Source: Pseudorhodobacter sp. E13
GTDB taxonomy: Bacteria; Pseudomonadota; Alphaproteobacteria; Rhodobacterales; Rhodobacteraceae
Assembly: GCF_003991405.1 (NCBI RefSeq)
Contig: NZ_RPEN01000156.1
Span: 186,001-250,000, forward strand
Direction of reading: 5' to 3'
DNA: 64,000 nt
Every line of letters starts with the position of its first letter. The stretch's first letter is position 1. This document shows positions 8,992 to 25,942 of the stretch, piece after piece. The translations under genes were made by a program, and so were the position numbers. The notes under the pieces are model-generated. The model was not told the origin of the DNA. It saw only the letters and a program-made list of their open reading frames with translations, and did not search any database.

Positions 8992-9062
8992 GGCGTTGTT
9001 TTCACCGAGTGATGCGGCAGGTCAAGCGAAAAAGGCGAAAGCGGCAGGGAGGAGCCGCGCTA

Positions 9063-9079
9063 GGGGGCATTGAGCCCCC
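9063..9079. other. G+C-rich hairpin between dnaB and alr
   Basis: A perfect 6-bp stem, GGGGGC and GCCCCC, with a 5-nt loop (ATTGA). There is no T-run on either side, so this is not a classical intrinsic terminator. It lies in the 286-bp gap between the dnaB stop and the alr start, which also holds a copy of the dispersed element and a second hairpin. Confidence 0.45.
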
Positions 9080-9153
9080 CACGCGCGGCATTGCCATGGT
9101 TGTGTGGCAGGGGGGCAATTGTTCTGGTCCTTGGCGCCTGCGATGCTGTGAAT

Positions 9154-9184
9154 GCCTCCGGCGGATGTATTTGGGCCAAGATGA
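9154..9184 (+). repeat. Dispersed CCTCCGGCGG-ATTTGGGCCAAGATGA element
   Basis: One copy of the intergenic element family. It has the GCCTCCGGCGG head and the ATTTGGGCCAAGATGA tail, which match the pyrE-pyrC intergenic copies and the 16082 copy. It is oriented on the plus strand, antisense to both flanking genes (dnaB and alr are minus), so it does not simply end their transcripts. Confidence 0.7.
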
Positions 9185-9234
9185 TGCTGTAGCAGCCAAA
9201 ACCGGGATCGGCTTGGTGGTGGCAACGCCGCACG

Positions 9235-9255
9235 AAGGGGTCTCAATGGCCCCTT
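9235..9255 (-). terminator. Possible hairpin terminator of dnaB
   Basis: A 6-bp inverted repeat, AAGGGG and CCCCTT, with a 9-nt spacer, 23 bp beyond the dnaB stop. It lacks a U-tract, so it may be an RNA-stabilising hairpin rather than an intrinsic terminator. Confidence 0.35.
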
Positions 9256-9277
9256 TGGGCGGCACCTGCCTGACGGG

Positions 9278-10768
9278 TCAATAGCCGGTGTCGCTGCCCT
9301 CTTGCCAGGCTTTGACGAGGTTGCCGAAGCGGGTGAAGCGGCCTTCGAAGCTGAGTTCCACCGTGCCGATCGGGCCGTGGCGTTGTTTGCCGATGATGAC
9401 TTCGGCCTTGCCATGCACGCTTTCCATTACCGATTGCCATTGCGCCATTTTTTCCAGCTCATGGTCGCCGGGCTTTTCGCGTTCCTTGTAATATTCATCG
9501 CGGTAAACGAACATGACCACATCGGCGTCCTGTTCGATCGAGCCGGATTCGCGCAGGTCGCTGAGCTGCGGGCGTTTGTCTTCGCGGCTTTCGACCTGAC
9601 GCGACAGCTGGGACAAGGCGATCACCGGGATGTTGAGTTCCTTGGCAATCGCTTTCAGCCCTTGGGTGATTTCCGAGACTTCCTGCACCCGGCTTTCCTT
9701 GGACGAGCCTTTGAGCAGTTGCAGATAGTCGATGATCAGCACATCCAGCCCATGCGTCCGTTTCAGGCGCCGCGCGCGGGCTGCGACCTGTGAGATTGGC
9801 AAGGCTGGGGTGTCGTCGATATAGAGCGGGCAGGCCTCCAAGCTTTTTGCTGCCTCTACGAAGCGGCGGAATTCCTGTTCGGTCATATCGCCGCGGCGGA
9901 TCTGCTCTGAGGGCACTTCGGAGGCTTCTGACAAGATCCGCGCCGCCAGTTGTTCGGCGCTCATTTCCAGCGAGTAAAAGCCGACAACGCCGCCTTCCAC
10001 CGCGCCTTCGCCGCCATCCGGCAAGCGCCCGCGCCGATAGGCTTTGGCGACATTGAAGGCGATATTGGTGGCCAGCGAGGTTTTGCCCATCGAGGGGCGA
10101 CCTGCGAGGATCAGCAAATCCGACGGGTGCAAACCACCCAGTTTCTTGTCCAGATCAATCAGCCCGGTGGAAATGCCCGCAAGGCCGCCATCACGCTGAT
10201 AGGCGGCGTTGGCGCTGTTCACCGCTTCGGTCACAGCCTTGAGGAAGCTTTGGAAGCCGCGTTCGGCCACGCCTTGTTCCCCCAGCTTGTAAAGCCGTTG
10301 TTCAGCCTCGATGATCTGTTCTTTCGGCTCGGAGGCCACCTCGACCTTGGCCGCTTTGGCCGCAATATCACGGCCCAAACCGATCAACTCTCGCCGCACC
10401 GCAAGATCATAGAGCATCTGGGCATAATCACGCGCGGCATAGGACGAAATCGCGGCCCCCGCCAGACGCGCCAGATAAGACGGGCCGCCCAGTTCCTTCA
10501 GGCCTTCGTCATCTTCCAGAAACGCCTTCAGCGTGACGGGCGAGGCCAAAGCGTTCTTTTGAATGCGCGCGGCGGCGATTTCAAAGATGCGGCTGTGGAC
10601 GGGATCATAGAAATGCTCGGCCTTCACCAGACTGGAAATCCGGTCATAGACATCGTTATTGGTCAGGATCGCGCCAAGGAGCTGCTGTTCCGCCTCGATA
10701 TTATGCGGCAGCGATTCCGCCTCGACCTGCGCCGGAAGCGTTTGTTTGATCGGTGCGACCTCGTTCAT
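9278..10768 (-). CDS. dnaB: Replicative DNA helicase DnaB
   Basis: The hexameric 5'-3' fork helicase, 496 aa. The N-terminal DnaB domain spans roughly residues 20-125 and a linker helix leads to the RecA-like motor with Walker A GRPSMGKTS at 223-231. The Walker B region reads LIIDYLQLL, and the DnaB-specific SREDKRPQLSDLRESGSIEQ region follows. No intein is present. Two DnaA-box-like sites lie 90-120 bp upstream. Confidence 0.98.
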   Translation of the reverse strand: MNEVAPIKQTLPAQVEAESLPHNIEAEQQLLGAILTNNDVYDRISSLVKAEHFYDPVHSRIFEIAAARIQKNALASPVTLKAFLEDDEGLKELGGPSYLARLAGAAISSYAARDYAQMLYDLAVRRELIGLGRDIAAKAAKVEVASEPKEQIIEAEQRLYKLGEQGVAERGFQSFLKAVTEAVNSANAAYQRDGGLAGISTGLIDLDKKLGGLHPSDLLILAGRPSMGKTSLATNIAFNVAKAYRRGRLPDGGEGAVEGGVVGFYSLEMSAEQLAARILSEASEVPSEQIRRGDMTEQEFRRFVEAAKSLEACPLYIDDTPALPISQVAARARRLKRTHGLDVLIIDYLQLLKGSSKESRVQEVSEITQGLKAIAKELNIPVIALSQLSRQVESREDKRPQLSDLRESGSIEQDADVVMFVYRDEYYKEREKPGDHELEKMAQWQSVMESVHGKAEVIIGKQRHGPIGTVELSFEGRFTRFGNLVKAWQEGSDTGY

Positions 10769-10857
10769 TCCTCAACCCTCATCTGTCCCGCTCCGGCCCC
10801 TGCGCCAGATGCCCCCGTCTACGCCAAAACCCCTGTTGCAGGAAACCCCGGCGTCCC

Positions 10858-10936
10858 GGTGGATAACATCGGGCAGAACCCTGTGGATAAGGCGCGACGC
10901 TGTGGCGTGCGAGCCAAACCCTACCACATCTTGTGG
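10858..10936. promoter_or_regulatory. DnaA-box-like cluster upstream of dnaB
   Basis: TGTGGATAA at 10882-10890 is an exact complement of the consensus DnaA box TTATCCACA. GGTGGATAA at 10858-10866 is a one-mismatch copy in the same orientation, 24 bp away start to start. A 13-bp palindrome CCACATCTTGTGG (10924-10936) follows. The cluster lies 90-170 bp upstream of dnaB and suggests DnaA control of its promoter. The area is not AT-rich enough to look like an unwinding element. Confidence 0.55.
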
Positions 10937-11028
10937 CAAATCAAAGGCTGTTTGCCCAGATCGACGATTCTTTGCTGCTCTATCCCCAAATCCCCCAGGG
11001 AAAAATATCTGGGGATGAATTGCGGAAA

Positions 11029-11706
11029 TTATCCTTTGCGTGCGTCCTGCCAGGCGCGAGGTGCGTTCAGGAAGCTTTCCACCTCGGTCAGAGTGGCCGC
11101 ATCAAAGGCACCGCTGGCTTTCGCCTCGGCCAGAACATCCCACCATGTGCAAAGGTGGTGCAAAGCCACGCCATGATCAGCCAGTTTCTGCGTCGTGTCG
11201 GGGAAAATCCCGTAATAGAAAATCACCGCCGTATGCGCGCAGGTCGCCCCGGTTTCGCGGATCGCATCGACGAAGGATAGTTTGGAGCCGCCATCGGTGG
11301 TCAAATCCTCCACCAGCAAGACGCGCTGGCCTTCGGTCATCACGCCTTCAATGCGTGCGTTGCGGCCATAGCCCTTTGGCTTCTTGCGCACATAGGTCAT
11401 CGGCAGCGCCATCCGTTCGGCCACCAAAGCGCCGAAGGGAATGCCCGCCGTCTCTCCGCCTGCGATATTGTCGAAAGCCTCAAAGCCCGCGTTGCGCATG
11501 ACGGTGACGGTAAGAAAATCCATCAGGGTCGACCGGATGCGCGGATAGGAGATCAGCTTGCGGCAATCAATATAGGTCGGGCTGGGCAGGCCGGAGGCCA
11601 GCGTGAAAGGTTCGGCGGCATTGAAATGCACAGCCTTGATTTCCAGCAACATCCGTGCGGTCAGCCGGGCGATTTCCTCGGCGGAAGGAAAGCTTGAGGG
11701 GATCAT
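11029..11706 (-). CDS. pyrE: Orotate phosphoribosyltransferase
   Basis: Converts orotate and PRPP to OMP in pyrimidine synthesis. The PRPP loop [13 protein letters not shown] is at residues 129-141, and the conserved KKPKGYG segment near 108-114 is the active-site loop. At 225 aa it is typical of the alphaproteobacterial type. It lies downstream of pyrC on the same strand; the 105-bp gap between them carries a perfect 20-bp inverted repeat. Confidence 0.96.
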
Positions 11707-11724
11707 GAGGTTGGTCCTTTCTGC

Positions 11725-11810
11725 TTCATCTATTTGGTAAATATCCCCGCCGGAGGCTCCCGCAACTGGCCATGGATGCCTCCGGCGGGGATATTTAGAA
11801 ACAGATGAAC
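11725..11810. repeat. Two head-to-head copies of the dispersed element forming a 20-bp inverted repeat
   Basis: The arms at 11738-11757 and 11778-11797 (GCCTCCGGCGGGGATATTTA and its complement) are perfect over 20 bp, with a 20-nt spacer. Beyond the arms each side continues to an AGATGAA block, so this is two copies of the same element facing outward from a common centre. It lies between pyrC and pyrE. As RNA it would form a strong hairpin in the intercistronic region and could modulate pyrE expression. Confidence 0.75.
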
Positions 11811-11811
11811 A

Positions 11812-12852
11812 TCAGCTTTCGACATGCCAGTGCACGGGAAAGCCGGGGTTGAAGACGGTGACGGGGCCTGCTTCGGTCAGGATCTTGTCTGGCCATTGCG
11901 CAGGCGCGCCTTTGGTGAGGGTAAGCGTGGCCTCATTCACGGGGAGGCGGTAGAAGGCGGGGCCGTTGCGCGAGGCAAAGGCCTCCAGCTTGTCCAGCGC
12001 GCCGTCTTCTTCAAAGACATGGGCGAGCAAGGGCATGGTATTGGTGGCGGTAAAACAGCCCGCGCAGCCGCAGGCATGTTCTTTCAGCGCGTCCACATGC
12101 GGGGCGGAATCGGTGCCAAGAAAGAACCGCGCCGCCCCGGATGTGGCCGCTTCGCGCAGGGCCAGCCGGTGCTGTTCGCGCTTGGCCACCGGCAAGCAGT
12201 AGTAATGCGGTTTGATGCCACCTGCGAGGATGTGGTTGCGGTTGATGATCAGGTGATGGGTGGTGATTGTGGCGGCCAGATCATCGCCGCCGCTTTGGGC
12301 ATAGGCGACGCCTTGTCCGGTGGTGATATGTTCCATCACAACGCGCAAACCGGGGATCGCGCGGCGCAGCGGGTCCAGCACTGTATCAATGAACACCGCT
12401 TCGCGGTCAAAGATATCAACCTCGGGCGTTGTCACCTCGCCATGCACGCAAAGCGGCAGGCCAATCTCGGCCATTTTTTCCAGCACGCCGCGCACTTTGT
12501 CAAAATCGCGCACGCCGCCGTGGGAATTGGTGGTGGCCCCGGCGGGGTAGAGTTTTACCGCCTTCACCAAGCCCGAGGCCGCTGCGGCGGCGACATCTTG
12601 CGGGTCGGTGTCTTCGGTCAGGTAAAGCGTCATCAGCGGCTCAAACCGCATGCCTTTGGGCAGCGCTGCCATGATGCGGGCGTGATAGGCCTGCGCATCG
12701 GCATGGGTGACGACGGGTGGCACCAGATTGGGCATGATGATCGCGCGGGCGAAATGGCGGGCGGTTTCAGGCAGCACCCCTTTGAGCATCGCGCCATCGC
12801 GCAGATGCAGGTGCCAATCATCGGGGCGGGGAAGCGTGAGGCTCTGTGTCAT
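11812..12852 (-). CDS. pyrC: Dihydroorotase
   Basis: Zinc amidohydrolase that cyclises carbamoyl-aspartate in pyrimidine synthesis. The ATG at 12852 gives 346 aa, the size of the type II (E. coli-like) enzyme, and places the metal ligands in HLHLRDG at residues 14-20. KLYPAGATT supplies the carboxylated lysine; the longer frame to 12906 adds residues before the conserved [10 protein letters not shown] start. Upstream of pyrE on the same strand. Confidence 0.96.
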
Positions 12853-12957
12853 GGCGAAAAGCGCTAGCCTATCCGCCGCGCGTTTTCCAGTCTCAAAAAC
12901 TGGCAAGGCGGTGAAAATACGGCCTGCGGGTGCTGTCGGGCCTTGGCCGCGCGTGGA

Positions 12958-13902
12958 TCAAGATTTGTCCAGCGTGCCCGATTGCTCCAGCTTTTCCAGA
13001 TGGCTGCGAAAGCCAGGTGCGCGCAGCCGGTTGGTGACAGAGCGGCAGATCATCGCTTCGCGTTTGGGATGCCCTGCCTTGGCGCAGGCCCGCAGGATCC
13101 AGCGCAGATAATTGCCAAAGCTGCGCCGCTCGCGCCAAAGTTTGTTGTAGAAGGGCGCGGATAACTTGCCGTCACAGACCGCTTTCACCAATTTCGGCAA
13201 CACCCCCATGTCGGACAGGGCGGTGACCAGATGGTCGCCCAGAAACCGGGCCTTCAGGTGGGTGGCAAAGGACTTGCGGAACAGCGCCACATGCATCGCA
13301 TCCAGCTTGTTATAGGGGTCATGCAGGGTGAACACTTCGGCAGCGCCTTCGGTCATATCGGGGGCATAGCCATAACGGTCGGTGAAATTCAGGCGACGCG
13401 AGGCGGTATAACGCGTTTCCCAGCCTGCAATCTCTGGGTCCAGCGAGGCGCGCGGTTGTAGCGCCAGAACCGTGCAGCCCGGCGCGGTGACGGAAAAGGC
13501 CGCCGCCGCATAGCCGCCCATGCCAGCGCCATAAAACACCACACGGTCGTAATCGTCGAAAAAGCTTTCGTCCACCAACCGGTCGAGAAAGGCATAAACG
13601 GCCTTGTCCCGATACCATGTGTCGCCCTCGCTGATCAGGCTCAGATGTGACCAGCCGTTTTGCGTGGCTTGGCCAAAGATATGCGGCATCTTGCCCGGTT
13701 CCAGCGCGCGAATATCCTCCAGCCGGTCGAAGCTGATCACCAGCGTCGGGCCATCTTCATTGAACACGGCCCAGTGGCTTTTGCCCAAGGGTTCAAAAAA
13801 CCCCGAGTCATTGCCCATGTTTTCCAGCAAAGACAGCCAGCCCGCCCGATCCATCATCGCAGGCGTCTCGGTCTGGGTCGTCGTTTCAATCTGGTCTGTC
13901 AT
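12958..13902 (-). CDS. Alpha/beta-hydrolase-like protein lacking the nucleophile serine
   Basis: A 314-aa protein from the ATG at 13902 (the frame is open to 13989, and other Met starts are possible). From about residue 45 it aligns along its length with residues 485-735 of the fusion protein at 18723, including the flanking VVFYG-x-MGGY and the later DPY-LDA-HV segment. The nucleophile elbow that reads GASMGG there reads GAGMGG here (residues 125-130), so the expected catalytic Ser is Gly127. Relatives have been labelled PAPS reductase, which the sequence does not support. First of a block of four minus-strand genes that look like a glycan locus. Confidence 0.7.
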   Translation of the reverse strand: MTDQIETTTQTETPAMMDRAGWLSLLENMGNDSGFFEPLGKSHWAVFNEDGPTLVISFDRLEDIRALEPGKMPHIFGQATQNGWSHLSLISEGDTWYRDKAVYAFLDRLVDESFFDDYDRVVFYGAGMGGYAAAAFSVTAPGCTVLALQPRASLDPEIAGWETRYTASRRLNFTDRYGYAPDMTEGAAEVFTLHDPYNKLDAMHVALFRKSFATHLKARFLGDHLVTALSDMGVLPKLVKAVCDGKLSAPFYNKLWRERRSFGNYLRWILRACAKAGHPKREAMICRSVTNRLRAPGFRSHLEKLEQSGTLDKS

Positions 13903-14061
13903 TTCAAGTGCCGCCAATCGTGAATCTTGGACATGGGTTCCCGCGCTGGTCATATGTGCCAGTATTGCGTGGCACAAACGCGCGGACAAGGCGGCAATAA
14001 GGTGGCATCTTCGAATAATCCGGAAACAATCTGTGGGGATTGTTTGGCCTTGGTTCGAGGG

Positions 14062-15108
14062 TCAGGCGGCTCCTGTGCCCACCGCGCCTTGCCCATGCTG
14101 CCAGATCAGCCGGGCTTCGGCCTCGGTCAGGCAGCGGGCGGGGCGTGACAGCAGCAAGCGGCCAAAGAGGCTGCGCCAGTCCATATCCTGCATCAGCTCC
14201 AAGAACCGCGCCTTGCGCCAGGCAACGCCTGCCTCATGCAGGCTGCGCAAGGCGGGATCGGCCTTGAACGCTGCCAGATGCGCGGCGCGGGCCGGGGACA
14301 GCCGCTCGATCGAGCGATCTTCGACGTCACAGAAATTCCGTTCCACCCAATAGCCCATATCAAAGCTGGAGGCATCGCGATTGGCGCGGCCCCGGTCGCA
14401 TTTCACGATATAGCTTTCCATCGCCCCCAGCGCGTAATGGTTCATCTGCACCAGCCCGAAATTATCGCGCCCAAGCGGCGAGATGATGCGGTTGCGGTGA
14501 TAGTCGGGCGGCAGGGTGCGACCAGAGCCATCAACCCAAACCTGCGCGGCCATCCGCTCTGGGTCCGGGTTGCGGGGGCGGTGGACGCCCAGTTTGCGAT
14601 AGGCCCCGTCATTGCGAAACAGGGTTTTGAACATCGCCCCGCGCCACGGCCAATAGAGCAGCGCCGGCGCGGCGCGGGTGAACACCTCGGTCACCGGCCT
14701 GTCGTCAAAGCCGATCACTCCGGCATTGCCAAAAAAACGCCATGTCAGCGGAATTGCCGTGGCATGGGGCAGGGCGGCCAGCAGCGCGGGCAAAGTGCCG
14801 TCGCCAGTATGGATATTGACGAATTCATCCACATCGAAAAACAGCACCCAATCGGCGGCTTTCTTCAACGGGTGCTTGTCGGCGGCTTTCAGCGCGGCCC
14901 ATTGCGGGCCTTCGTCATGCGGTCCATCGTTGCGGATATGGGTCAGCACGCCTAATTCGGCCAAACGGTCCAGCATCAGGTCGGTGCCATCGGTGCAATC
15001 ATTTGAAAACACGAGAAAATCGGTAAAGCCACAGGCTTTGTGATGGGCCAGCCATTCCAGCAGGAAGGCGGCCTCATTCCGCACGGTCAGGATTGCGAGG
15101 AAGCGCAT
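14062..15108 (-). CDS. GT-A type glycosyltransferase (family 2/92-like)
   Basis: A 348-aa cytoplasmic glycosyltransferase from the ATG at 15108 (AAAGG upstream). It begins with the LTVRNEAAFLLEWLAHHKACG segment typical of this subfamily, then FSNDCTDGTD, and has the metal-binding FFDVDEFVNI at about residues 93-102. A C-terminal NHYALG and KCDRGRANRD region matches its two neighbours. It overlaps the upstream glycosyltransferase gene by 22 bp. Donor and acceptor are unknown. Confidence 0.85.
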   Translation of the reverse strand: MRFLAILTVRNEAAFLLEWLAHHKACGFTDFLVFSNDCTDGTDLMLDRLAELGVLTHIRNDGPHDEGPQWAALKAADKHPLKKAADWVLFFDVDEFVNIHTGDGTLPALLAALPHATAIPLTWRFFGNAGVIGFDDRPVTEVFTRAAPALLYWPWRGAMFKTLFRNDGAYRKLGVHRPRNPDPERMAAQVWVDGSGRTLPPDYHRNRIISPLGRDNFGLVQMNHYALGAMESYIVKCDRGRANRDASSFDMGYWVERNFCDVEDRSIERLSPARAAHLAAFKADPALRSLHEAGVAWRKARFLELMQDMDWRSLFGRLLLSRPARCLTEAEARLIWQHGQGAVGTGAA

Positions 15109-16070
15109 CTGGCCAACCTTTCTTCCAAAGCGGCCAAAAGCGGCGCGTAATCGGGGCGGGCTTTCAGCGCGGCGATCTTGGCACGGTGCCATTTGACGGC
15201 GCGGTCATGCAACCCGTCCAGCACCGCATCCGCCAACAAGCGCGCGCGCCAGTCGGCCACCGCCGCATCATAGCGGCGAATGGCGTCGCAGGCCACCTCG
15301 GCCACATCGAAACGGTCCCAATAGTCGATCTCCATCACCTCATTGCTGTGGTTCACCCGCCCGCGATCCCGCTTTACCAGAAAACTGTCGCGCGAACGCA
15401 GGGCGTAATGGTTCACCTGCGCCACGCTATAGTCACGCAGCGCCAGCATCGGGTTCAGCCCCGGCCCAAGCCGCAACCCGCCCGGCATTTCGCTGCGCAA
15501 GGGGCGGCCCAGATCAGGGCGGGGGACGGGGGCGTGGATGCCGATGCGATGCATGTTTTCCAAACCGCGAAACAGGGATTTGCAGTAAATCCCTTGTGGC
15601 TGGCCGGGGGCTTGCGGCTGCATCGCGCTCCGGAATTGCGCTGTCACCGGCGCATCCTCATAGTCGCGTTGGCCATCCGGCCCGAACACCCGCCACGGAA
15701 CAGAGATCACCTCCGCATCCGGCCGCCCCGCCGCCACCAATGCGCGCGCCGAACCATCACCGGTTTTCACCACCAGAAACTCATCCGCATCGCAGACATA
15801 GAGCCAATCGGCTTGCTTCACCTCATCATAGCGCTGGGCTTGTTTCAGCGCCGAACGCTGGATCGAGGTCGCGGCCCAAGGCGTTGTCGCATGATGCCGC
15901 GCCAGCCCCATTTCCTGTAACCGCAAGACCATGCGGCTGGTCGGATCGTCGCAATCATTGGTGCAGATCAGCAGATGGTCAAACCCAAGCGCCTTGTGAT
16001 GGGCCACCCATTCCAGCAAGAACGCCGCTTCGTTCTTCATCGTGGTGATGACCGTATAACCACCCATCAC
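15087..16070 (-). CDS. GT-A type glycosyltransferase, paralogue of its neighbours
   Basis: A 327-aa glycosyltransferase with TTMKNEAAFLLEWVAHHKAL at its N-terminus, CTNDCDDPTS, the DxD-type motif VCDADEFLVV near residue 95, and the C-terminal NHYALRSRDSFLVKRDRGR segment. It shares this layout with the genes at 14062 and 16174, so the three arose by duplication. A dispersed-element copy lies 12 bp upstream. Probably transfers a sugar to a surface or secreted glycan; no acceptor can be named. Confidence 0.85.
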   Translation of the reverse strand: MMGGYTVITTMKNEAAFLLEWVAHHKALGFDHLLICTNDCDDPTSRMVLRLQEMGLARHHATTPWAATSIQRSALKQAQRYDEVKQADWLYVCDADEFLVVKTGDGSARALVAAGRPDAEVISVPWRVFGPDGQRDYEDAPVTAQFRSAMQPQAPGQPQGIYCKSLFRGLENMHRIGIHAPVPRPDLGRPLRSEMPGGLRLGPGLNPMLALRDYSVAQVNHYALRSRDSFLVKRDRGRVNHSNEVMEIDYWDRFDVAEVACDAIRRYDAAVADWRARLLADAVLDGLHDRAVKWHRAKIAALKARPDYAPLLAALEERLARCASSQS

Positions 16071-16081
16071 CGCGCCCCAAT

Positions 16082-16112
16082 TTCATCTTGGCAAAAATAC
16101 CTATCCGGCATC
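16082..16112 (-). repeat. Dispersed GGTATTTTTGCCAAGATGAA element
   Basis: Read on the minus strand this contains CCGGATAGGTATTTTTGCC followed by AAGATGAA, nearly identical to the 36226 copy. It lies between the 777-aa glycosyltransferase gene (stop 16174) and the next gene (start 16070), in the sense direction of both, immediately upstream of the 16070 start. Confidence 0.7.
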
Positions 16113-16173
16113 TGCCACTTGCCCCGCAGAACAAGCGAAGCGCACACAATGCCACCGAAAATCTTGCCACCGC

Positions 16174-18507
16174 TCAATGCTCCTGCTCCCCCGTATGTTC
16201 GACGGTAAAAAAGAAATCTGGTGCGATGTCGCGTTCATGCAGGTCTTCGGGGATCACGGCAGGGCCTGCGGAAAACACGGCAGAGCCGAAATGCTGCTGC
16301 ATCCGGCACAGCCGCTCCATCCGCGGGCCTGTCAGTTCGGCATAGAAATTCTGGTAATTCTCGGTTTCCATCAGTTCCGCGATCTTGTCGTGGTGGCAGC
16401 GCACCGAATAGGCATGGGCCGCCGCGATATCGGGGTCCGCCATCAGCCGGTCATACTCGGCTTGCAGGGCGGGGATCATGCGCTGGATGCTGCGATCTTC
16501 CTCCAGATTATGGTTCATGCGGAACCAGTAATTCAGCCCTTGGTCGCGGTCGACATGGTTCACCCGCCCCCGGTCGCGCTTGACCAGAAAACTCTCGGCA
16601 GAGCGCACGGCATAATGGTTCAGGCTGACCCAATCATAGCCATAGGTTTCCAGCGTCGAGCGCCAGCCATTGCGGAACATGGTGCGGGGCAGGGGCTTGC
16701 CCGAGCCGTTCAACCATTTCACCTGGTCCCACAGATCGGGGATCAAGCCTTTGGGCCGGTGCACGCCCAGCTTTTTGTATATGTCGATATTGCGGAACAG
16801 GGTCTTGAAGCCCCAGGCCTGATGCGGTTTGCGGATCACCTCGGGCGCGCAGCGGGTGAATTGATCCAGCAGGAACCGATCTTCATAGCCATGCACCTCG
16901 GCATTGCCGAACAGCCGCCATGTCAGGCTGATCATATTCGCCTCGCCCATCGCCTTATACAGCGCGTCCAAGGTGCCATCGCCGATCTTGATGTTGATGA
17001 ATTCATCCACATCCATGCAGATGCCCCAACCGCAGTTCTGCATCACGGGTTCGGATTCCGCCGCCTGCAAGGCCGCGTGCTGCGGTTTCAGATCGCCGCC
17101 CGGCACGAAAGGGTTGGCGCGGTGCTGCACGATGCCCTTTTCCTGCAACATATCCAGCATCGTATCGGTGCCATCGGTGCAATCATTGGTGTAGATCAGG
17201 AAATCATCCACTCCGATGGCCCGGTGATAGGCCAGCCATTCCAGAATGAACGGGCCTTCGTTCTTCATCGTGGTCACAATCGCGGTGCGCCCGCCCTTGA
17301 TCGCGGCTTTCGGCGCGGCTTTGGGCTTGGATACCGGCGCGCGCACGGGTTTGTGGTCAAAGGCCTCTGCCGCCAAGGCCAGCAGCGCGTCATCTTCCAC
17401 CAGCGAGGTTTTCGGCGCCAGTTCAGAGGCGTTGCGCCCTGGCACCTTGATCGCCATCGCGCGGTAAAACGGCAAGGCGGACATCGGGTCGGGGTTGGTA
17501 TAGGCCACGCGCAACATGCGCCATGTGTTCACCAGCCCGGCCTGTTGCGGGGCCACCCCCCAGCGCAGCATCGGCTTGCCAATATCAAACGGCATGCAGA
17601 TATGATCGCCAAACCGCGCCTCTTGGTTGTTGCGCACGCGCCACGGATAGCTGCGCCGCCCTGCCAGCAGGATAACGCCTTTCTTTTCCGCGACGCAGCG
17701 GTCAAAGGCCCCTGTCGCACCTTCGGGCACCGGGGCCAGAATATCGGGCACATCCAGCGTCAGCACCGCGCGGGCGGCAGACAGAAAGCGCCATTTCATC
17801 ACCTCATAGATCAACCCTTCGCCCAAGGGGCTGCGCCATGGGTCGGGGCCGGGCACCTCCATCCGGTCCTTGCCGGGGGCATCGGGGGCCAGATAGGGGT
17901 GGTTTTCCGGCCCCAGCGTGGGCTTGCCCAAAGGCAGCGGGCAATCCAGCAGCACCACGCGCATATCGCAATCGCCCAGATCTTTGGCCAATGTGCGCGA
18001 CAGTTTGGCCGCCCATTGATCCGGCTCTGTGCCCGGCAGGCGGTTGACGATCAGCGCCCCCGTGGCCCCATGGTGGCGCGCGTGATAGCGCAGCCATTCC
18101 GCGATCTGGGCGGGGCTTTCCTCGGTCCGGAAGCCAAACAGGCAATTGCGCCCGGCCAAATACGCGGGCTCTGCCATGGTCACGGCCACCTCCAGCGCCG
18201 GGGCGTCGTGGCGGGCCAGCCGCACCACGTCGGGCGTTTGGCGCGGGGCTGCAACCGCGATGAAGGCCGAGCCGGAGACATCGCGCAAATCCAAGGGCAA
18301 GGCGCAATCAGGCCCGCCATCGGGGGCGAATTGGTCGATCCTCGTGCCATTGCCAAAGAACACATGCACCCGGTCATCCGCCACGCGGATACACTCCAGC
18401 AAGCGGCCAAGGCCATCACCGGCCAATGCCATCGCTCCCAATTGGCGGTGGATCAGCCTGTCTGCCGTTGGCGCGCTATCCCGCCCGGATCTGGGACCTT
18501 TGCCCAT
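16174..18507 (-). CDS. Tandem-domain glycosyltransferase with a degenerate N-terminal copy
   Basis: A 777-aa protein. The C-terminal half (about residues 405-720) is a GT-A domain with TTMKNEGPFILEWLAYHRAIG, TNDCTDGTD and CMDVDEFINI (DVDEF at 499-503). The N-terminal half (about 110-350) follows the same plan: AEWLRYHARHHGATGALIVN near 136 and TLDVPDILAP with DVPDI at 252-256, followed by a comparable YPWR segment. So it looks like a duplicated domain that has lost the acidic DxDE motif. A Lys/Pro/Ala-rich linker (385-404) joins the halves. Only the C-terminal domain is likely to be catalytic. Start supported by GCGGGG about 8 nt upstream. Confidence 0.8.
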   Translation of the reverse strand: MGKGPRSGRDSAPTADRLIHRQLGAMALAGDGLGRLLECIRVADDRVHVFFGNGTRIDQFAPDGGPDCALPLDLRDVSGSAFIAVAAPRQTPDVVRLARHDAPALEVAVTMAEPAYLAGRNCLFGFRTEESPAQIAEWLRYHARHHGATGALIVNRLPGTEPDQWAAKLSRTLAKDLGDCDMRVVLLDCPLPLGKPTLGPENHPYLAPDAPGKDRMEVPGPDPWRSPLGEGLIYEVMKWRFLSAARAVLTLDVPDILAPVPEGATGAFDRCVAEKKGVILLAGRRSYPWRVRNNQEARFGDHICMPFDIGKPMLRWGVAPQQAGLVNTWRMLRVAYTNPDPMSALPFYRAMAIKVPGRNASELAPKTSLVEDDALLALAAEAFDHKPVRAPVSKPKAAPKAAIKGGRTAIVTTMKNEGPFILEWLAYHRAIGVDDFLIYTNDCTDGTDTMLDMLQEKGIVQHRANPFVPGGDLKPQHAALQAAESEPVMQNCGWGICMDVDEFINIKIGDGTLDALYKAMGEANMISLTWRLFGNAEVHGYEDRFLLDQFTRCAPEVIRKPHQAWGFKTLFRNIDIYKKLGVHRPKGLIPDLWDQVKWLNGSGKPLPRTMFRNGWRSTLETYGYDWVSLNHYAVRSAESFLVKRDRGRVNHVDRDQGLNYWFRMNHNLEEDRSIQRMIPALQAEYDRLMADPDIAAAHAYSVRCHHDKIAELMETENYQNFYAELTGPRMERLCRMQQHFGSAVFSAGPAVIPEDLHERDIAPDFFFTVEHTGEQEH

Positions 18508-18722
18508 AACTTACCCCGCTCACCCCTCACTCAAGGCGGTCTGTTGCCACCCTTTCCGCTTTGGCAATATCACAGCCAAAGCCACAGGGCCAAGCAAAGG
18601 ATGCCAAGATTTTGCATCATCCCTTTGCAAATCACCATTATTTCGTCAGATTGTTTCGCTATAAGCACCAATAAGACGTCACACGCAGGCAAATCCGCGA
18701 AAGAGCAGCAAGGCAGCAACAT
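18508..18722. promoter_or_regulatory. Divergent control region of the glycan-type locus, with inverted repeats
   Basis: A 215-bp region between two divergent genes. An 8-bp perfect inverted repeat, GCTTTGGC (18558-18565) and GCCAAAGC (18575-18582), has a 9-nt spacer. A second pair, GCAAAGG and CCTTTGC, follows between about 18595 and 18630. The second half is AT-richer than its surroundings and holds a TATAAG hexamer upstream of the plus-strand gene. These could be operator sites coordinating both directions; no regulator gene is adjacent. Confidence 0.45.
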
Positions 18723-20945
18723 ATGGCACGGACACGGGAGGTGGGGACGCTATGGATCGGTGGCAGCCTGAGCTGGATGGAACAGCTTTGCCTGAAAAGC
18801 TTTGTCGATCAGGGCCAGAAGATCACGCTGTTTGCCTATGAAGATATTCCCAATGTCCCCGAAGGCGTGATCCGCCGCGACGGGCGAGAGATCCTCGATA
18901 CCGATGATTTCATCAAATATGAAAAGAAAGATAGCTTCGCGCTGTTTGCCGATTATTTCCGCATCCACATGATCGCGCAGAACCCCGGCATGATCTGGGT
19001 GGATACCGATGTCTATTGCCACCGCCCGATGGCCTATGACAGCGATTATGTGATGGGGTTTGAACTGCCGGGCGGGCGACGGGTGAATAACGCGGTGCTG
19101 GGCCTGCCGGTGGGCAGCGCGGTTCTGGCCGATATGCTGCACTTCATGGAAGACCGCCACGCCATCCCACCCTTTCTGAAGCAAAGCCAGCAAGACGAAT
19201 ACCGCGCCGCCGCCGCCGCCGGGACGCCGGTGCATGTCAGCCAGCAGCCTTGGGGCGTCTGGGGGCCGCTGATGGTGACGCATTTCGTGCATAAGCACGG
19301 CTTGCTGGGGCAGGTGCAGCCCTTGGAGGCGTTTTACCCGATCCCCTTCCCGGACCGGCTGATGTTCCTGCGCCGCAGTGCAGTGGTGCAGGGCTTGTTG
19401 TCTGACAAGACCACGGCGCTGCATCTTTGGGCCTCGAACAAGCGCGAATTGGGGCTGCGCCATGGTGGCCTGCCGCCTGCCAATACCTATCTGGCCGATT
19501 TGCTGCGCCGCCATGATATTCACCCCGAAACCGCGCCGATCAAAGGCCGGGGGCGACGGGTGTTTGATGCGGGCTTGCTGGAACAGGTGCCGCTGGAACA
19601 GGCCAGCCGCATTGCCGATATCGGCGGCAATGCGCAATCGGTGGCACTGGCGGCATGGGGCAAATGGCGCTGCGCGATTGATCTGATTGATATCGACCAC
19701 AAGGGCCGCTGGCCGGAAACCCCGTCAGATTGGGTCGCCCCTTACCGCCAGTTTCTGACTGAGAACGGCGTGCCCTTTGACCAGATCCATGTGATCGCCA
19801 AACCCGAGGATTTGCGCCCCGCAGAATTGGTGGCAAACCTCACCGGATTTGGCGATGTCAATAAAATCGGCCCGTTGGGCGGGCTGCTGGATGCGGGGCT
19901 GGCCCCTGGTGGCATGGTTTTGTCGGATATCCGCAAAGGCTCTGGCGGCTATCCTTTCCTGAAAAAGCGCGGCACGATTACCCTGCTGACCAATCGCAAC
20001 GATGGCGGGATAGAGGTGCATCGCGTCTTGTTGGCCGCCGATGGCACGCTGGGCGCAGTTGCGCAGGCCGAACCGCCCCCCCCCGAAGAAAGCTGGGCCG
20101 AGATTGCCACGCGCTTGGCCGGCAAGGACGGGTTTTACCGTGAAAGCGATGAGCATGGCATGATGTTCATCAAACGCTCTGACACGCTGGTGGTGACTTT
20201 CGACAACCTCGATATCGCGATGGAAAAGCGCGAGGATAAACGGCCTTGGGGCTTTGCCTTCATCGAAAAACAGGGTTGGTCGATGCTGGGGGTTACGGCG
20301 GCGGGCTGGACATGGTTTCGCGACCCTTGGGTCTATGCCCAGTTTGACGCGCTAAAGAAAAAGGGATTTTTCAAGACATTCAAACGCGTGGTGTTCTATG
20401 GCGCCTCGATGGGCGGCTATGGCGCCTGCGCCTTTGCGGCGGCCTGCCCGGGGGCGGATGTGGTGGCCATTTCGCCGCAATCGACGCTGGATAAATCACT
20501 TGTGCCGTTTGAGACACGTTACAAAACCGCATGGGACCGGGATTTTTCCGGCCCCTATGGCGATGCGGCAAAGGTTTCGGCCAAGGCAGGGCGGGTGACG
20601 CTGATCTATGATCCGTATGAGCCGCTGGACGCGGGCCATGTGGACCGTTTTGCGGCCAAAAACGTGGTGAAGCTGCGCGCGCCTTTGCTGGGGCACAGGT
20701 TGGGGTCCAGCTTGCAGCAGATGGGGATTTTGTCGCCCATCGTGCTGGCGGCCTTGAACGGCTCGCTGACAGAGGCCGAATTTTACCAAAAGCTGCGGGC
20801 GCGCAAGACGTTCAACCGCTATCAAAAAGAGCTGTTCAAACGCGCGATGGACAAGGGCCACCCGGAACTGGCCCGCCGCATGGGCCGTTGGGTGCTGACC
20901 CGCGGCGACAACCGCCATATCCGCAAAGCTATGGAGAAAATGTAG
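18723..20945 (+). CDS. Three-domain fusion: DxD glycosyltransferase, Rossmann-like and alpha/beta hydrolase
   Basis: A 740-aa protein. Residues 5-260 resemble the DxD sugar-transferase fold (GT32-like): FADYFRIHMI then WVDTDVY with Asp94/Asp96. Residues 285-445 look like a Rossmann-type, methyltransferase-like domain (ADIGGNAQSVALA near 298). Residues 480-740 form an alpha/beta-hydrolase-like domain with an intact nucleophile elbow GASMGG (Ser562) and DPYEPLDAGHV further on; this part is paralogous to the protein at 12958. It is transcribed away from the tandem glycosyltransferases and shares their control region. A role in making and modifying a surface glycan is inference. Confidence 0.75.
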   Translation: MARTREVGTLWIGGSLSWMEQLCLKSFVDQGQKITLFAYEDIPNVPEGVIRRDGREILDTDDFIKYEKKDSFALFADYFRIHMIAQNPGMIWVDTDVYCHRPMAYDSDYVMGFELPGGRRVNNAVLGLPVGSAVLADMLHFMEDRHAIPPFLKQSQQDEYRAAAAAGTPVHVSQQPWGVWGPLMVTHFVHKHGLLGQVQPLEAFYPIPFPDRLMFLRRSAVVQGLLSDKTTALHLWASNKRELGLRHGGLPPANTYLADLLRRHDIHPETAPIKGRGRRVFDAGLLEQVPLEQASRIADIGGNAQSVALAAWGKWRCAIDLIDIDHKGRWPETPSDWVAPYRQFLTENGVPFDQIHVIAKPEDLRPAELVANLTGFGDVNKIGPLGGLLDAGLAPGGMVLSDIRKGSGGYPFLKKRGTITLLTNRNDGGIEVHRVLLAADGTLGAVAQAEPPPPEESWAEIATRLAGKDGFYRESDEHGMMFIKRSDTLVVTFDNLDIAMEKREDKRPWGFAFIEKQGWSMLGVTAAGWTWFRDPWVYAQFDALKKKGFFKTFKRVVFYGASMGGYGACAFAAACPGADVVAISPQSTLDKSLVPFETRYKTAWDRDFSGPYGDAAKVSAKAGRVTLIYDPYEPLDAGHVDRFAAKNVVKLRAPLLGHRLGSSLQQMGILSPIVLAALNGSLTEAEFYQKLRARKTFNRYQKELFKRAMDKGHPELARRMGRWVLTRGDNRHIRKAMEKM

Positions 20946-21547
20946 GGATAACAGCGGCTAAATGCTGGGCGGGTTCAGGGGCACTATCGTGCCACTTTGG
21001 TAAAAAGGTCGCGCGGCTGTTATCGCAGGCGTTCTGTTTGTGTCGCGTCAGAATGAAGCCGGGTTTTGCTGGCGGTCTGGTGTGGTGCTGACGGTTGCCG
21101 AAGTAATGAGCCTTCTGGGCAAAGCCTTTTCGCCGCGTTGATTGACGATTTACAAAGTGGCCTGCGTCACGATGACGACCATATGTTCAGGTTTTCCTCT
21201 GGGAAAAATAACAGGGCAGCGGTGGTTGACGGCTGGCAACCGCGCACATGCCGGGCGCAATGGGCTGCCGATGCTGGCCAGTGGTCAGCGCGATGCCCCG
21301 GGCAAACCAGGAAGTGTTGGGGGCAGGCCGATACGATGATTGCAGCAAAGAAAACTACCCCATTCAGCCGAAGACGACCCTGTTGGTATTGACGCGAGAA
21401 CCGATGATGGACGCCCTGTTTTATGTGATCTGGAGTGACTGATGCGATGGCCGCGCGCAGTCCTGAAGGGTTTTGACTTGGTTCGCCCCGTAGTCAGAAA
21501 GTAAGCCGGGATAGGCATTTTTCATGCGGCAGGGGAACGGGGGGCAC
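20946..21547. other. Gene-poor stretch, no supported gene
   Basis: About 600 bp with only short frames in all directions, none with a convincing ribosome site, domain or codon pattern. Base composition is less GC-rich than nearby genes. It may be the remains of decayed accessory DNA, since the next small ORF carries a nonsense codon. No tRNA, hairpin terminator with T-run or repeat array was recognised here. Confidence 0.6.
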
Positions 21548-21632
21548 TCCCGCCATTCGTTGCCTTTTGCCTTGCGGCAAAAAGCGCCTCAAGGTTGGAC
21601 CGGGCCGCGCCCCTTGAAAGAGGCGCGGCGGT
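21548..21632. repeat. Dispersed structured repeat, family B, copy 1
   Basis: About 85 bp that reappear at 48009-48089 with few differences. It holds an inner hairpin TTTTGCC-TTGC-GGCAAAA and a terminal hairpin GCCGCGCC/GGCGCGGC. The loops differ from the other copy (TTGC versus TGCC; a long versus short terminal loop), but both stems are kept. Between the hairpins lies a conserved GCGCCTCAAGGTTGG block. Confidence 0.8.
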
Positions 21633-21661
21633 TGTGCCTTTGGGATGGGGCCCGACCGGGA

Positions 21662-21940
21662 CTAACTGCTGAGCATCTTGAGAAGCTTGATGCTGGCCAC
21701 GGTTTCTTTCTCGACGCCTTGGAAATTCGTTGTCATCACCTTGAATTTACCCATCAATTCCTGCACTGCGCGCTGCATCTCCTTTTTCTTGTCAGGGTCT
21801 TTTTCCGCCCCGGCCTCGGCAAAGGCGATCTTGATGATATTCGACACCTCTTTCAGATTCTTCTTGTTCTCGGCGCTGATCTTCTTGCCAACGCTTTCCA
21901 GTGCCTTGGTTGCATCGGCAATCCAGTCTTTCTAGGCCAT
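21662..21940 (-). pseudogene. Small helical protein gene with an in-frame amber codon at position 3
   Basis: From the ATG at 21940, preceded by a strong GGAGG site 5 nt away, the frame reads Met-Ala-TAG and then stays open for 89 more codons to the TAG at 21662. The encoded product would be a charged, helical protein of about 92 aa beginning KDWIADATKALESVGKK after the stop. The TAG is at 21932-21934. A downstream GTG at 21847 could restart translation but has no good ribosome site. The gene may be inactivated by a point mutation, be misread, or depend on readthrough. Family unknown. Confidence 0.65.
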
Positions 21941-22107
21941 AATGTCCTCCACAAATATATGCTGCAAATCGGATAAGCCTGTGCCTGCGCCCTGAGTCTG
22001 TCAATCGCGAAGGTGCGGCGCCCGCAGGCGGTGGCGCAGCATTGTGATGACTTGTTTCGGCAAGCGATATTTGCTGTGATGGGCCATGTTTTCAGAAAGG
22101 TCTTATC

Positions 22108-22584
22108 ATGTTGAAATCTGTTTTTGCGCCCGTTCTTGCCTTCATACTCGCCATGGCCTTAACCCTTGGGGCAGCCATGGCCGAGACGCTATATGTCAAG
22201 CAAACCAATGACGGCTATCTGAACCTGCGCAGCGGGCCGGGGGTGGGGTTTGATATCCTGCAACGCATGTATCCCGGCGATCAGGTGGAGGTGCTGGAGG
22301 TCAGTGGCACATGGGCCCGCGTGCGCCATGAAGGCGGCCGGATGGGCTGGACCTCGGGCAAGTTTCTGGAGGCGCGGCTGGCGTTTGGGCAAATGCTGAC
22401 GGTGGTGCAAACTTCGGATGGCTATCTGAACCTGCGCAGCGGGCCGGGCTCTGACTATGACATCATTCGCCGCATCTATCCCGGCGACCGGGTGCGGCTG
22501 CTCGATGCGCAAGGCGCATGGCGACGGGTGGAACTGGTAAACGGGGTGGTCGGCTGGGCGCATGGGCGCTATCTGGCGCGCTGA
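22108..22584 (+). CDS. Secreted protein with two bacterial SH3 domains
   Basis: A 158-aa protein with a signal peptide (about residues 1-25, ending GAAMAE). Two SH3b repeats follow, at about 28-87 and 92-155, each with DGYLNLRSGPG, a YPGD segment and a VGWxxGxYL or similar end, so it arose by internal duplication. SH3b domains typically bind cell-wall or peptide targets in the periplasm. No catalytic domain is attached. It stands alone; a hairpin repeat follows 7 bp after the stop. Confidence 0.8.
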   Translation: MLKSVFAPVLAFILAMALTLGAAMAETLYVKQTNDGYLNLRSGPGVGFDILQRMYPGDQVEVLEVSGTWARVRHEGGRMGWTSGKFLEARLAFGQMLTVVQTSDGYLNLRSGPGSDYDIIRRIYPGDRVRLLDAQGAWRRVELVNGVVGWAHGRYLAR

Positions 22585-22590
22585 CAGGGC

Positions 22591-22613
22591 GTAGGGTGGG
22601 CAATCTGCCCACC
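22591..22613. repeat. GTAGGGTGGG hairpin repeat, copy 1
   Basis: GTAGGGTGGGC-AATCT-GCCCACC forms a 7-bp perfect stem with a 5-nt loop, 7 bp after the stop of the SH3 gene. A second copy with a different loop lies after gatB at 59915. Short repeats of this GTAGGGTGGG type are known as REP-like elements in several bacteria; no linked transposase is seen here. Confidence 0.6.
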
Positions 22614-22650
22614 GCACCTGCTATGGCCCCTTGGGCGGGGCGATTGGGGG

Positions 22651-23868
22651 TCAGAAGAACGCCTGCAACCCCGTGACCGCCCGGCCCAAAATCAGGGCAT
22701 GGACATCATGCGTCCCTTCATAGGTGTTCACCGTCTCAAGGTTCACCATATGGCGCATGATCTGGTAATCTTCCTGAATACCATTGCCGCCATGCATATC
22801 GCGGGCATGGCGGGCGATCTCCAGCGCCTTGCCGCAATTGTTCCGCTTGACGATCGAGATCATCTCAGGTGCCGCATTCGCCTCATCCAACAGCCGGCCC
22901 ACACGCAAGGAAGCCTGCATGCCCAGCGAAATATCCGTCATCATATTGGCCAGTTTCAACTGATAAAGCTGGGTCTGGGCCAAAGGCTTATTGAACTGCT
23001 TGCGGTCAAGCCCATATTGCCGTGCGGCATGCATACAAAACTCCGCCGCCCCCAGAACCCCCCATGAAATGCCATAGCGCGCGCGGTTGAGGCAGCCAAA
23101 CGGCCCCTTCAACCCCTCTACATGCGGCAGCAAGGCATCCTCGCCCACTTCCACATCCTTCATCACAATCTCGCCGGTGATAGAGGCGCGCAGCGACAGC
23201 TTGCCGCCGATTTTCGGCGCGCTCAGCCCCTTCATGCCCTTATCCAGCACAAAGCCGCGGATCTTGCCACCATGCGCCTCCGATTTGGCCCAGACCACGA
23301 AGACATCCGCAATCGGCGCGTTCGAAATCCACATCTTCGCGCCGTTCAGCACATAGCCATTCGCGGTTTTCTTGGCGGTGGTTTTCATCCCTGCGGGGTC
23401 CGAGCCTGCATCCGGTTCGGTCAGGCCGAAACAGCCGATAAATTCACCCGAGGCCAGCTTGGGCAGGTATTTCCGGCGCTGCTCTTCCGATCCATAGGCA
23501 TAAATCGGATACATCACCAAGGACGATTGCACCGACATCATCGACCGATACCCTGAATCGACGCGCTCCACCTCGCGCGCGATCAAACCATAGGCCACAT
23601 AAGACGCACCAATCCCGCCGTATTCTTCCGGCACAGTCACGCCCAGCAGGCCCATTTCCCCCATCTCGCGGAAAATGCCGGGGTCTGTGCTTTCCTCGCG
23701 ATAGGCTTGTGTCACGCGGGGTTGCAGCTTTTCCTGCGCATAGGCGCGTGCGCCGTCGCGCAGCATCCGCTCCTCCTCGGTCAACTGGTCGTCAAGGCGG
23801 AAGGGGTCTTCCCAGTCGAAACGGCCCAGATCGGGGGCGTCTTTGGCTTTCAGCTTCGGCTTGTCCAT
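22651..23868 (-). CDS. gcdH: Glutaryl-CoA dehydrogenase
   Basis: FAD-dependent acyl-CoA dehydrogenase that dehydrogenates and decarboxylates glutaryl-CoA to crotonyl-CoA in lysine/tryptophan breakdown. At 405 aa it has the [19 protein letters not shown] segment near residue 155, and the catalytic Glu lies in [10 protein letters not shown] near the C-terminus, as in this subfamily. The [19 protein letters not shown]-terminus is characteristic. A LysR regulator is transcribed divergently from a 107-bp shared region, the usual arrangement for this gene. Confidence 0.93.
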
Positions 23869-23945
23869 GGCAGGGCTCCGTTTCTATCTGTCTGGCGTCT
23901 GGATAGCGGTAAAACGGCATCCGTTCAAATGAATAAGCTTTGCAA

Positions 23946-23968
23946 GTTTATGAGGAATGCGCATAAAC
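23946..23968. promoter_or_regulatory. Palindrome likely bound by the adjacent LysR regulator
   Basis: GTTTATG (23946-23952) and CATAAAC (23962-23968) form a perfect 7-bp inverted repeat with a 9-nt spacer, and the pair contains the T-N11-A type layout of LysR sites. It ends 7 bp before the lysR ATG at 23976 and lies about 80-100 bp from the gcdH start. That position suits autorepression of the regulator and activation of gcdH. Confidence 0.6.
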
Positions 23969-23975
23969 TCGCCCC

Positions 23976-24899: not shown

Positions 24900-24947
24900 C
24901 CGGGGGCAGCCGGATTGCTTTGGTGGGGCCAAGGGCAGGGGGATCAG

Positions 24948-25859: not shown

Positions 25860-25862
25860 CCC

Positions 25863-25917: not shown

Positions 25918-25942
25918 CGCTTGCCAAGAACGCGAAAGCCCG

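Follow-up and report, generated by a model that had tools for sequence, protein, structure and literature searches.

What do the five open reading frames between positions 12,958 and 20,945 of a 64,000-nucleotide stretch of Pseudorhodobacter sp. E13 DNA (here called the window) produce together? An initial annotation held that they jointly make or trim one surface or secreted polymer. The genes do form one cluster and co-occur in relatives, while the polymer itself is something that we infer. In our reading, the cluster probably assembles a sugar of the cell surface and modifies it chemically.

Organization of the locus

An open-reading-frame check found all five frames at the coordinates originally assigned to them. 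On the minus strand lie a 343-residue hydrolase-like frame with a TTG start (12958..13989), whose true start is likely later, and two glycosyltransferase frames of 376 residues (14062..15192) and 327 residues (15087..16070). The start of the 14062 frame runs 106 bases into its 15087 neighbor, so its true start may be further in. A 777-residue protein, which we call the hub, is encoded at 16174..18507 on the same strand. A 215-base region (18508..18722) separates it from the divergent plus-strand gene for a 740-residue protein, which ends with a stop codon at 20943-20945.

The next gene downstream of 12958 is a conserved neighbor outside the proposed function, which we take from its sequence to be pyrC (dihydroorotase; 11812..12906, minus strand); beyond it lie what are presumably pyrE (11029-11706) and dnaB (9278-10768). 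Reading the frames between 8000 and 26000 of the window, we recognized no polymerase, flippase or export gene. Hydropathy gave no evident signal peptide or membrane span in the cluster proteins, the 19-residue maxima being 0.82-1.57.

The intergenic region had been proposed as a shared control region. Its divergent layout is common, since 49 of 65 DXD genes are adjacent and divergent to the hub among the best 80 of 565 loci, and a 30-base non-coding block (18624..18653, plus strand) is conserved in 13 of these 80, as judged against a control in which each of the 80 segments was shuffled once in two-base blocks. However, the block faces the 740-residue side only, and a sigma-70 and terminator scan of the region found nothing. 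The proposal of shared control is thereby supported in part; the block is possibly the promoter of the 740-residue gene.

GT92 glycosyltransferases and the hub

The 14062 and 15087 products and residues 415-516 of the hub all score above the Pfam cut-offs of PF13704 and PF01697/GT92. Pairwise, the 14062 product is 43% identical to the hub over 326 aligned positions and 35% identical to the 15087 product over 333. The view that three GT-A genes of one lineage lie here therefore holds for the two smaller proteins and the C-terminal half of the hub, but the N-terminal half is tied to GT92 only weakly by sequence (hhalign pairwise E 0.015, probability 3%). Its link comes mainly from a GT-A-like predicted fold, which follows strand-rich residues 18-108 in the modeled structure and carries D-x-x-D where DxD is expected.

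The C-terminal half has the motif DVDEF, with D499, D501 and E502 kept in 38 of 38 rows, and matches the GT92 enzyme GalS1 (8d3t) with a structural Z of 17.5. Family cut-offs, fold match and conserved DxD all liken it to GalS1. GalS1, however, is a plant galactan synthase, and the hub carries a second, degenerate-looking GT-A-like half. The chondroitin polymerase K4CP and LARGE1 also have two GT-A-like halves per chain, and Foldseek matches cover both halves of the hub; their whole-chain fit to it is nevertheless poor (rmsd 17-25 A), and the N-terminal half of the hub lacks a normal DxD.

Hubs of about 800 residues elsewhere in the family carry a different N-terminal domain. That this domain is a sulfotransferase, an idea suggested by a motif, was unsupported by a PDB profile search and by Pfam (20 members). 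Sulfotransfer_3 was absent from the genome of the window, a result that bears on that genome alone.

A three-domain fusion with a predicted catalytic triad

The 740-residue protein was modeled by AlphaFold with a pLDDT of 90. Predicted structure and structural comparisons agreed with its first description as a three-domain protein: a DxD GT-A glycosyltransferase domain of allotype A (WVDTDV; residues 1-280, 18723..19562, plus strand), a very variable SAM-methyltransferase-like module (residues 286-455, 19578..20087, plus strand) and an alpha/beta-hydrolase-fold domain (residues 456-740, 20088..20942, plus strand). In a 149-genome sample of the family, near-full-length matches at 51-73% identity occur in at least seven other genomes among the matches listed, so the gene is not a chance open reading frame; the match in genome G046 has an in-frame stop between two parts. 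A phage origin was rejected, a single weak match (27% over 34% of the protein) appearing in 50,697 phage records.

The middle domain matches TleD (Z 13.9 over 155 residues, 3.0 A), which gives it a Rossmann-like methyltransferase fold. Its SAM motif I is reduced, with A298 in 29, D299 in 33 and G302 in 31 of 34 rows, and is not a full GxGxG.

In the model of the C-terminal domain, S562 sits between a strand (555-561) and a helix (563-574), D630 follows strand 624-629 and H658 follows strand 648-652. Ser562, Asp630 and His658 plausibly form a catalytic triad, the Asp being assigned by position. In 58 of 58 hydrolase domains that are linked to a methyltransferase, neither the Ser nor the His is missing. 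In VIA-align the best structural matches were Gap2 (Z 14.9) and CsaC (Z 14.2), over 203 residues each; Foldseek placed a putative hydrolase first and Gap2 second. Profile and sequence searches connected the domain to none of Asp2, CsaC and XcbB/CpsF, the last of these (NF033892) scoring 10.3 bits, below its curated cut-off of 125.

Asp2 has the triad S362/D452/H482 and works with intracellular glycosyltransferases, according to the published account (PMC5578698). With Asp2/Gap2 (6oyc_B) our domain shares the alpha/beta-hydrolase fold, the Ser-Asp-His triad and glycosyltransferase partners, yet no sequence kinship was detected, and our domain shares its chain with a glycosyltransferase and a methyltransferase fold and has a dead paralogue. 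CsaC (6yuo), the capsule O-acetyltransferase of Neisseria meningitidis serogroup A, has the triad S114, H228 and D198 (PMC7501274) and the same fold. CsaC, however, stands alone in a capsule locus with a polymerase, whereas our domain is one of three in its protein and no export genes were recognized in its cluster.

Could the domain instead be a true esterase that strips acyl groups by editing or trimming, in a locus that makes or remodels a polymer? The Ser-Asp-His triad would suit it, and most hydrolase rows in both Foldseek and VIA-align are esterases. Because esterases fall within about 1.5-2 Z of the best match, and MPT51/FbpC1 reaches Z 13.4, the comparison does not separate a transferase from a hydrolase; the domain may equally be an O-acyltransferase or a trimming hydrolase, the predicted fold alone being indecisive. 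The two best VIA-align matches, however, are acetyltransferase-type proteins, and a cytosolic esterase within the fusion would need a pre-acylated substrate, whereas no other acyltransferase was recognized in the cluster. We consider this esterase reading unlikely.

The rank of Gap2 also raises the prospect that GT92 enzymes modify one or a few cytosolic proteins whose sugars the Asp2-like domain acylates, as in the accessory Sec/serine-rich-repeat adhesin pathway. That system has Asp2 acetylating GlcNAc on the adhesin GspB during accessory Sec export (PMC5578698), and the proteins of our cluster likewise look cytosolic. Yet no candidate acceptor protein was recognized in the cluster, the conserved neighbor is pyrC rather than a secretion gene, and CsaC, which ties with Gap2, acts on a polysaccharide. 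Protein glycosylation is therefore an improbable function, and we prefer glycan assembly and decoration.

A hydrolase paralogue without Ser and His

The 12958 product and the C-terminal domain of the 740-residue protein are paralogues (35% over 285 residues, E 6e-48), as the initial annotation had proposed, but its reading of both as enzymes is not supported for 12958. There Gly replaces the nucleophile and the catalytic His is absent, leaving out what an active alpha/beta-hydrolase requires; judged from these residues, the protein is a predicted pseudoenzyme. A sequence search at E 1 matched no solved structure to this domain.

Across 177 related domains, Ser and His occur together in 78, are both missing from 99 and are never found singly. 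All 99 members of the 12958 group lack both, and in a quick tree this group forms one side of a single branch (SH-aLRT 100). The pattern reflects one ancient split, and so counts as one evolutionary event rather than 177. Within the dead group, dN is 0.20-0.23 against a dS of 1.1-1.5 that is near saturation. If our reading is true, the locus provides a natural case of a pseudoenzyme retained beside its active paralogue.

Conservation of the core and of the fused enzyme

In 75 of 94 genomes a dead-form match shares the strand of pyrC and lies upstream of it by no more than 2.5 kb, and 13 more have it within 12 kb; in a few genomes, G021 for example, the best match may be the active domain. The 94 remain from 109 genomes after 12 with pyrC on another contig were set aside and three had no pyrC match at the cut-off. 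This computed synteny rests on the 109-genome count, 40 further regions having mostly been picked for neighboring GT92 and hydrolase matches. The GT92 genes and the dead hydrolase thus constitute a family-wide core, to which the 740-residue gene is accessory.

The cluster is also kept together in relatives, which belong to a large bacterial family from aquatic habitats. Among the matches listed, the hub occurs in all 12 genomes that carry the methyltransferase-hydrolase module (matched at 49% identity or more) and in 21 of 137 others, giving a Fisher p of 2e-9 that ignores shared ancestry; the 33 hub genomes take in the partial hubs of G019, G061 and G133. This 149-genome count is an independent check on the 80-locus counts, which presuppose a hub and favor near relatives, the loci being the best 80 of 565 matches to the 777-residue profile. 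In well-flanked loci among those 80, the hub stands without the other modules in 4 of 57 and no DXD gene is present in 12 of 57. The full set is therefore not obligatory.

Such gaps might mean that no single pathway is involved, the GT92 and dead-hydrolase core having its own task and the 740-residue gene being an unrelated neighbor at a shared insertion site. The DXD-less loci and the differing distributions of core and accessory genes are what such a reading would predict. It is harder to reconcile with the paralogy that links the 12958 product to the hydrolase domain of the 740-residue protein, with the fusion of DXD, GT92 and hydrolase modules to one another in other genomes, or with a 12-of-12 co-occurrence, even one uncorrected for ancestry. 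We regard unrelated neighbors as very doubtful. A role in anti-phage defense was rejected, as the five proteins had no PADLOC match at E 0.01.

Repeated change of allotype

Two allotypes with about 40% identity exist for the glycosyltransferase-methyltransferase part of the 740-residue protein, whose hydrolase domain remains conserved. On a hub tree of 57 rows, the allotypes, scored as sequence types, changed nine times, at least six of these being forced by well-supported branches; a second hub tree of the same rows gave seven changes. A single clade for the allotypes was rejected on the hub tree (p-AU 1.4e-8). Labels of fused versus separate genes changed nine times on a hub tree of 59 rows. 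These are quick trees, with rows from the best 80 of 565 loci. The 57-row tree leaves out L067 and L121, which have two DXD forms (the fused copy of L121 having part of one), and L069 and L120, which have another type.

Capsule and O-antigen loci that switch serotype hold variable decoration genes amid conserved parts and exchange them among close relatives. The allotype change seen here is serotype-like switching: a variable decoration part lies between conserved parts and is swapped among close relatives. It differs in that two domains of one polypeptide are exchanged while the third stays constant.

A model for glycan assembly and decoration

Our preferred reading, in which our confidence is evenly balanced, is that the cluster encodes a cytosolic machine with which Rhodobacteraceae assemble and decorate a surface glycan that other genes export. 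The hub, 15087 and 14062 proteins, with the dead 12958 product, would assemble a short glycan on a carrier whose synthesis and export depend on genes outside the cluster. Since we recognized no gene for a flippase, polymerase or exporter at the locus, a lipid-linked acceptor, LPS-core-like or other, would be compatible with this scheme. The dead hydrolase might persist as a subunit without catalytic activity, its task being to hold either the acceptor or a partner enzyme. In the 740-residue protein, the DxD domain would add a sugar, the SAM fold probably a methyl group and the Ser-Asp-His domain an acyl group, by the acyl-enzyme mechanism that CsaC and Asp2 use. A switch of allotype in the sugar-plus-methyl part, whether through recombination or because one of two copies is lost, would vary the outer group between strains. 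The initial annotation is borne out in two respects: the genes co-occur in relatives, and the domains are predicted to fold as glycosyltransferases and an alpha/beta-hydrolase.

More tentatively, and with clearly more doubt than we attach to the machine itself, we suggest an undescribed family-wide system in which an ancient, dead O-acyltransferase-like protein would be the constant scaffold of the GT92 core beside pyrC and the fused enzyme the variable part; swaps of its first two domains, on a third that stays the same, would switch the surface type, with phages or gene transfer agents probably exerting the selection. A shallow literature search, which does not establish absence from print, found no paper on this cluster. 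For the capsule receptor of RcGTA, with which the cluster may or may not be connected, one account names rcc01081-01086, rcc01932 and the wza/wzb/wzc genes (PMC10218006). If our reading is right, a testable surface-glycan pathway for a whole bacterial family lies behind 'hypothetical protein' labels, with serotype-like switching achieved by domain exchange inside one enzyme. In Rhodobacter capsulatus, a species used in laboratories, loci L090 and L107 contain the hub together with a GT92 gene and a hydrolase-like gene standing alone, and some relatives bear the annotation 'phosphoadenosine phosphosulfate reductase'.

A family-wide core beside pyrC

The four minus-strand genes that start at window positions 12958, 14062, 15087 and 16174 read towards pyrC, pyrE and dnaB, housekeeping names that we assigned by reading the sequences. 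A Pfam profile search placed 14062, 15087 and the C-terminal half of 16174, which encodes the 777-aa hub, among the GT92 (PF13704) glycosyltransferases. In a family sample of 149 genomes, one per genus, 109 matched the 12958-type profile at E 1e-45 or better, and 94 of these carried the match and pyrC on one contig. In 75 of the 94, the 12958-type gene shared its strand with pyrC and lay upstream of it at a distance of no more than 2.5 kb; in 13 it was further off but within 12 kb and in the same orientation, and in 6 it was elsewhere. In 40 regions read for gene order, mostly picked for GT92 and hydrolase matches close together, the usual order was GT92, a protein of about 800 aa with a C-terminal GT92 domain, GT92, hydrolase-like gene, pyrC, pyrE and dnaB, with pyrC inside 32 regions. 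Across a class-wide sample the hydrolase domain was rare (9 of 289 genomes); four of the nine belonged to the same family, and the five outside it gave weak matches (E 1e-12 to 9e-4). On synteny, gene order and distribution, 12958-16174 is thus one version of a core shared across the family, distinguished by a hub whose N-terminal half is its own.

In the hub model (pLDDT 88), the C-terminal half resembled the plant GT92 enzyme GalS1 (Z 17.5). The N-terminal half was GT-A-like, with a middling score against EXTL2 (Z 8.4, residues 117-351), and D252-x-x-D255 replaced DxD, D252 being present in 35 of 38 aligned rows and D255 in all 38. The 40 regions (L135-L174) contained 34 long-form hubs. Of the hubs read from other members of the family, most begin with another conserved domain, about 450 aa long (L165, 11203-13569, and 33 similar ones in L135-L174), for which a search with 20 members returned no significant common Pfam family and no PDB match.

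A hydrolase-like protein without the catalytic Ser and His

The initial annotation had counted the 12958 product among the catalytic modules. Aligned with the paralogous C-terminal domain of the divergent 740-aa protein, it has Gly in place of the nucleophile Ser and lacks the catalytic His, which does not support its reading as a hydrolase enzyme. Among 177 distinct domains (138 from the window and L031-L130, the remainder from 40 further loci), 78 had both residues, 99 had neither and none had one alone. D630 was conserved in the two groups alike, with at least 93% of the full set carrying it. The dead domains occupy one side of a single branch (SH-aLRT 100), and the split on Ser and His is therefore one ancient event. 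Their signature, Ala/Asp/Pro/Met at 740-aa positions 587/597/616/618, held in 99-100% of the 99; the window's 12958 deviates at 597, with Glu. In the 40 regions, 38 of 39 hydrolase domains were dead, and dN/dS of the dead hydrolase was low against close relatives. These sequence comparisons indicate a protein kept for something other than Ser-His chemistry.

The 740-aa protein

The 740-aa gene (18723-20945, plus strand) diverges from 16174 across 215 bases. Its product gave no Pfam match over the cut-off (best, Esterase, E 0.039), and we therefore interpreted it from structure and relatives. In an AlphaFold2 model (mean pLDDT 90; alignment of 46 sequences), residues 1-236 resembled DxD GT-A enzymes (YeGT, Z 13.5, 184 residues, 3.4 A) and residues 242-445 SAM methyltransferases (TleD, Z 13.9, 155 residues, 3.0 A). 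Residues 460-683 matched Gap2 of the Gap123 complex (Z 14.9, 203 residues, 3.6 A), which we take to be the counterpart of Asp2, and CsaC (Z 14.2, 203 residues, 4.2 A); MPT51 (Z 13.4) and numerous esterases scored just below. In the model, S562, D630 and H658 occupy the positions expected of an alpha/beta-hydrolase triad. According to PMC7501274, CsaC O-acetylates capsule via S114/D198/H228 and an acetyl-enzyme intermediate; according to PMC5578698, Asp2 acetylates the sugars of an adhesin, with S362/D452/H482. The modelled fold is compatible with both activities, and the C-terminal domain may be a transferase or an esterase. The genes and domains first described are present as noted, on GT92 profile matches and the predicted folds of the 740-aa protein.

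By its distribution, the 740-aa gene is an accessory. Module counts were taken from the 57 loci, among the best 80 of 565 fetched with the hub, that had at least 7 kb on each side. The DxD glycosyltransferase (DXD) domain was present in 45, a methyltransferase-like module in 38, a further GT92 in 44 and a stand-alone hydrolase-like gene in 45; the fused three-domain gene occurred in 24, all three modules without that fusion in 13, and none of these modules in 4. Among the matches listed, the methyltransferase-hydrolase module was found in 12 of the 149 family genomes, every time on the hub contig and no more than a few kb from the hub, and the hub in 21 of the remaining 137. The same modules fused in one place and separate in another are classic evidence of joint function, and since these occur both ways, joint function is indicated here.

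Other arrangements were also seen. In locus L046 (G064:C442, 2538-7766) a single 1742-aa ORF joins three DXD domains to one GT92 and one hydrolase-like domain, and L044 and L045 have shorter versions (1049 and 1408 aa). On a Thioclava sp. FTW29 plasmid (L131, 14953-15885) a hydrolase-domain relative adjoins a formylglycine-generating-enzyme-like gene, with a sulfatase-like gene near; we saw no basis for its label, phosphoadenosine phosphosulfate reductase. Another, on a Paracoccus saliphilus plasmid (L133, 11926-12819), is surrounded by sulfotransferase genes, cysN/cysD and two glf genes, along with genes for ABC and sugar transporters; this setting is closer to that of a classical polysaccharide locus.

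Switching of the sugar-plus-methyl part

The DXD domains fell into allotype A (fused, n=35), allotype B (a separate gene, n=25) and other types (n=3). Of 37 fused domains, 33 had the motif WVDTDV, and all 26 separate domains had WADTDA; mean identity was 40% between fused and separate domains, against 67% and 66% within them. The nearest hub loci to the window, among the best 80 of 565, were from Pseudorhodobacter. Compared with L051 of Pseudorhodobacter wandonensis, which has allotype B, the allotype-A window was 89% identical in the hub GT92 domain and 90% in the active hydrolase domain; in 40-residue steps, identity was 28-55% over residues 1-440 and 85-98% from 481 on. Against L112 (B) it was 75-95% from residue 481 on. 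The hub tree required 9 allotype changes, at least 6 of them forced by well-supported branches, or 7 in another quick tree, and allotype B as one clade was rejected (p-AU 1.4e-8). On these alignments and trees, the sugar-plus-methyl part varies against a constant background, much like surface antigens. Recombination may bring about the switching, or one of two copies may be lost. A Gemmobacter MAG (L067, 5517-9749) has both forms: along with a fused gene of allotype A, it carries two separate DXD genes in tandem.

A 30-base block (18624-18653) was kept in 13 of the best 80 of 565 hub loci at up to 8 mismatches (0 of 80 shuffled segments), in every case on the same strand as the DXD gene that diverges from the hub, and may be that gene's promoter. 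The shared control region proposed initially is supported in part by this block, which points only to the 740-aa side; a sigma-70 and terminator scan found nothing.

A possible product

We propose that the cytosolic GT92 enzymes would assemble a short glycan on a carrier that genes elsewhere supply and export, and that the dead hydrolase would act as a holding subunit. The accessory 740-aa enzyme would cap the glycan by adding a sugar and two smaller groups, one methyl and one acyl. Simple hydropathy gave no evident signal peptides or membrane spans (the 740-aa maximum, 1.57, is near the usual limit), and no export genes were recognised on reading the ORFs of window positions 8000-26000. These results, the family-wide conservation and the outer-step switching fit a product that resembles a core oligosaccharide with variable decoration. 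The proposal that the genes jointly make or trim one polymer was right in outline and wrong about one enzyme, 12958, which lacks Ser and His; the more interesting points are those on which it says nothing.

In the interval that separates the cluster from an acyl-CoA-dehydrogenase-like gene, 22108-22584 encodes a small protein with two similar, presumably SH3-like repeats, each containing GYLNLRSGPG.
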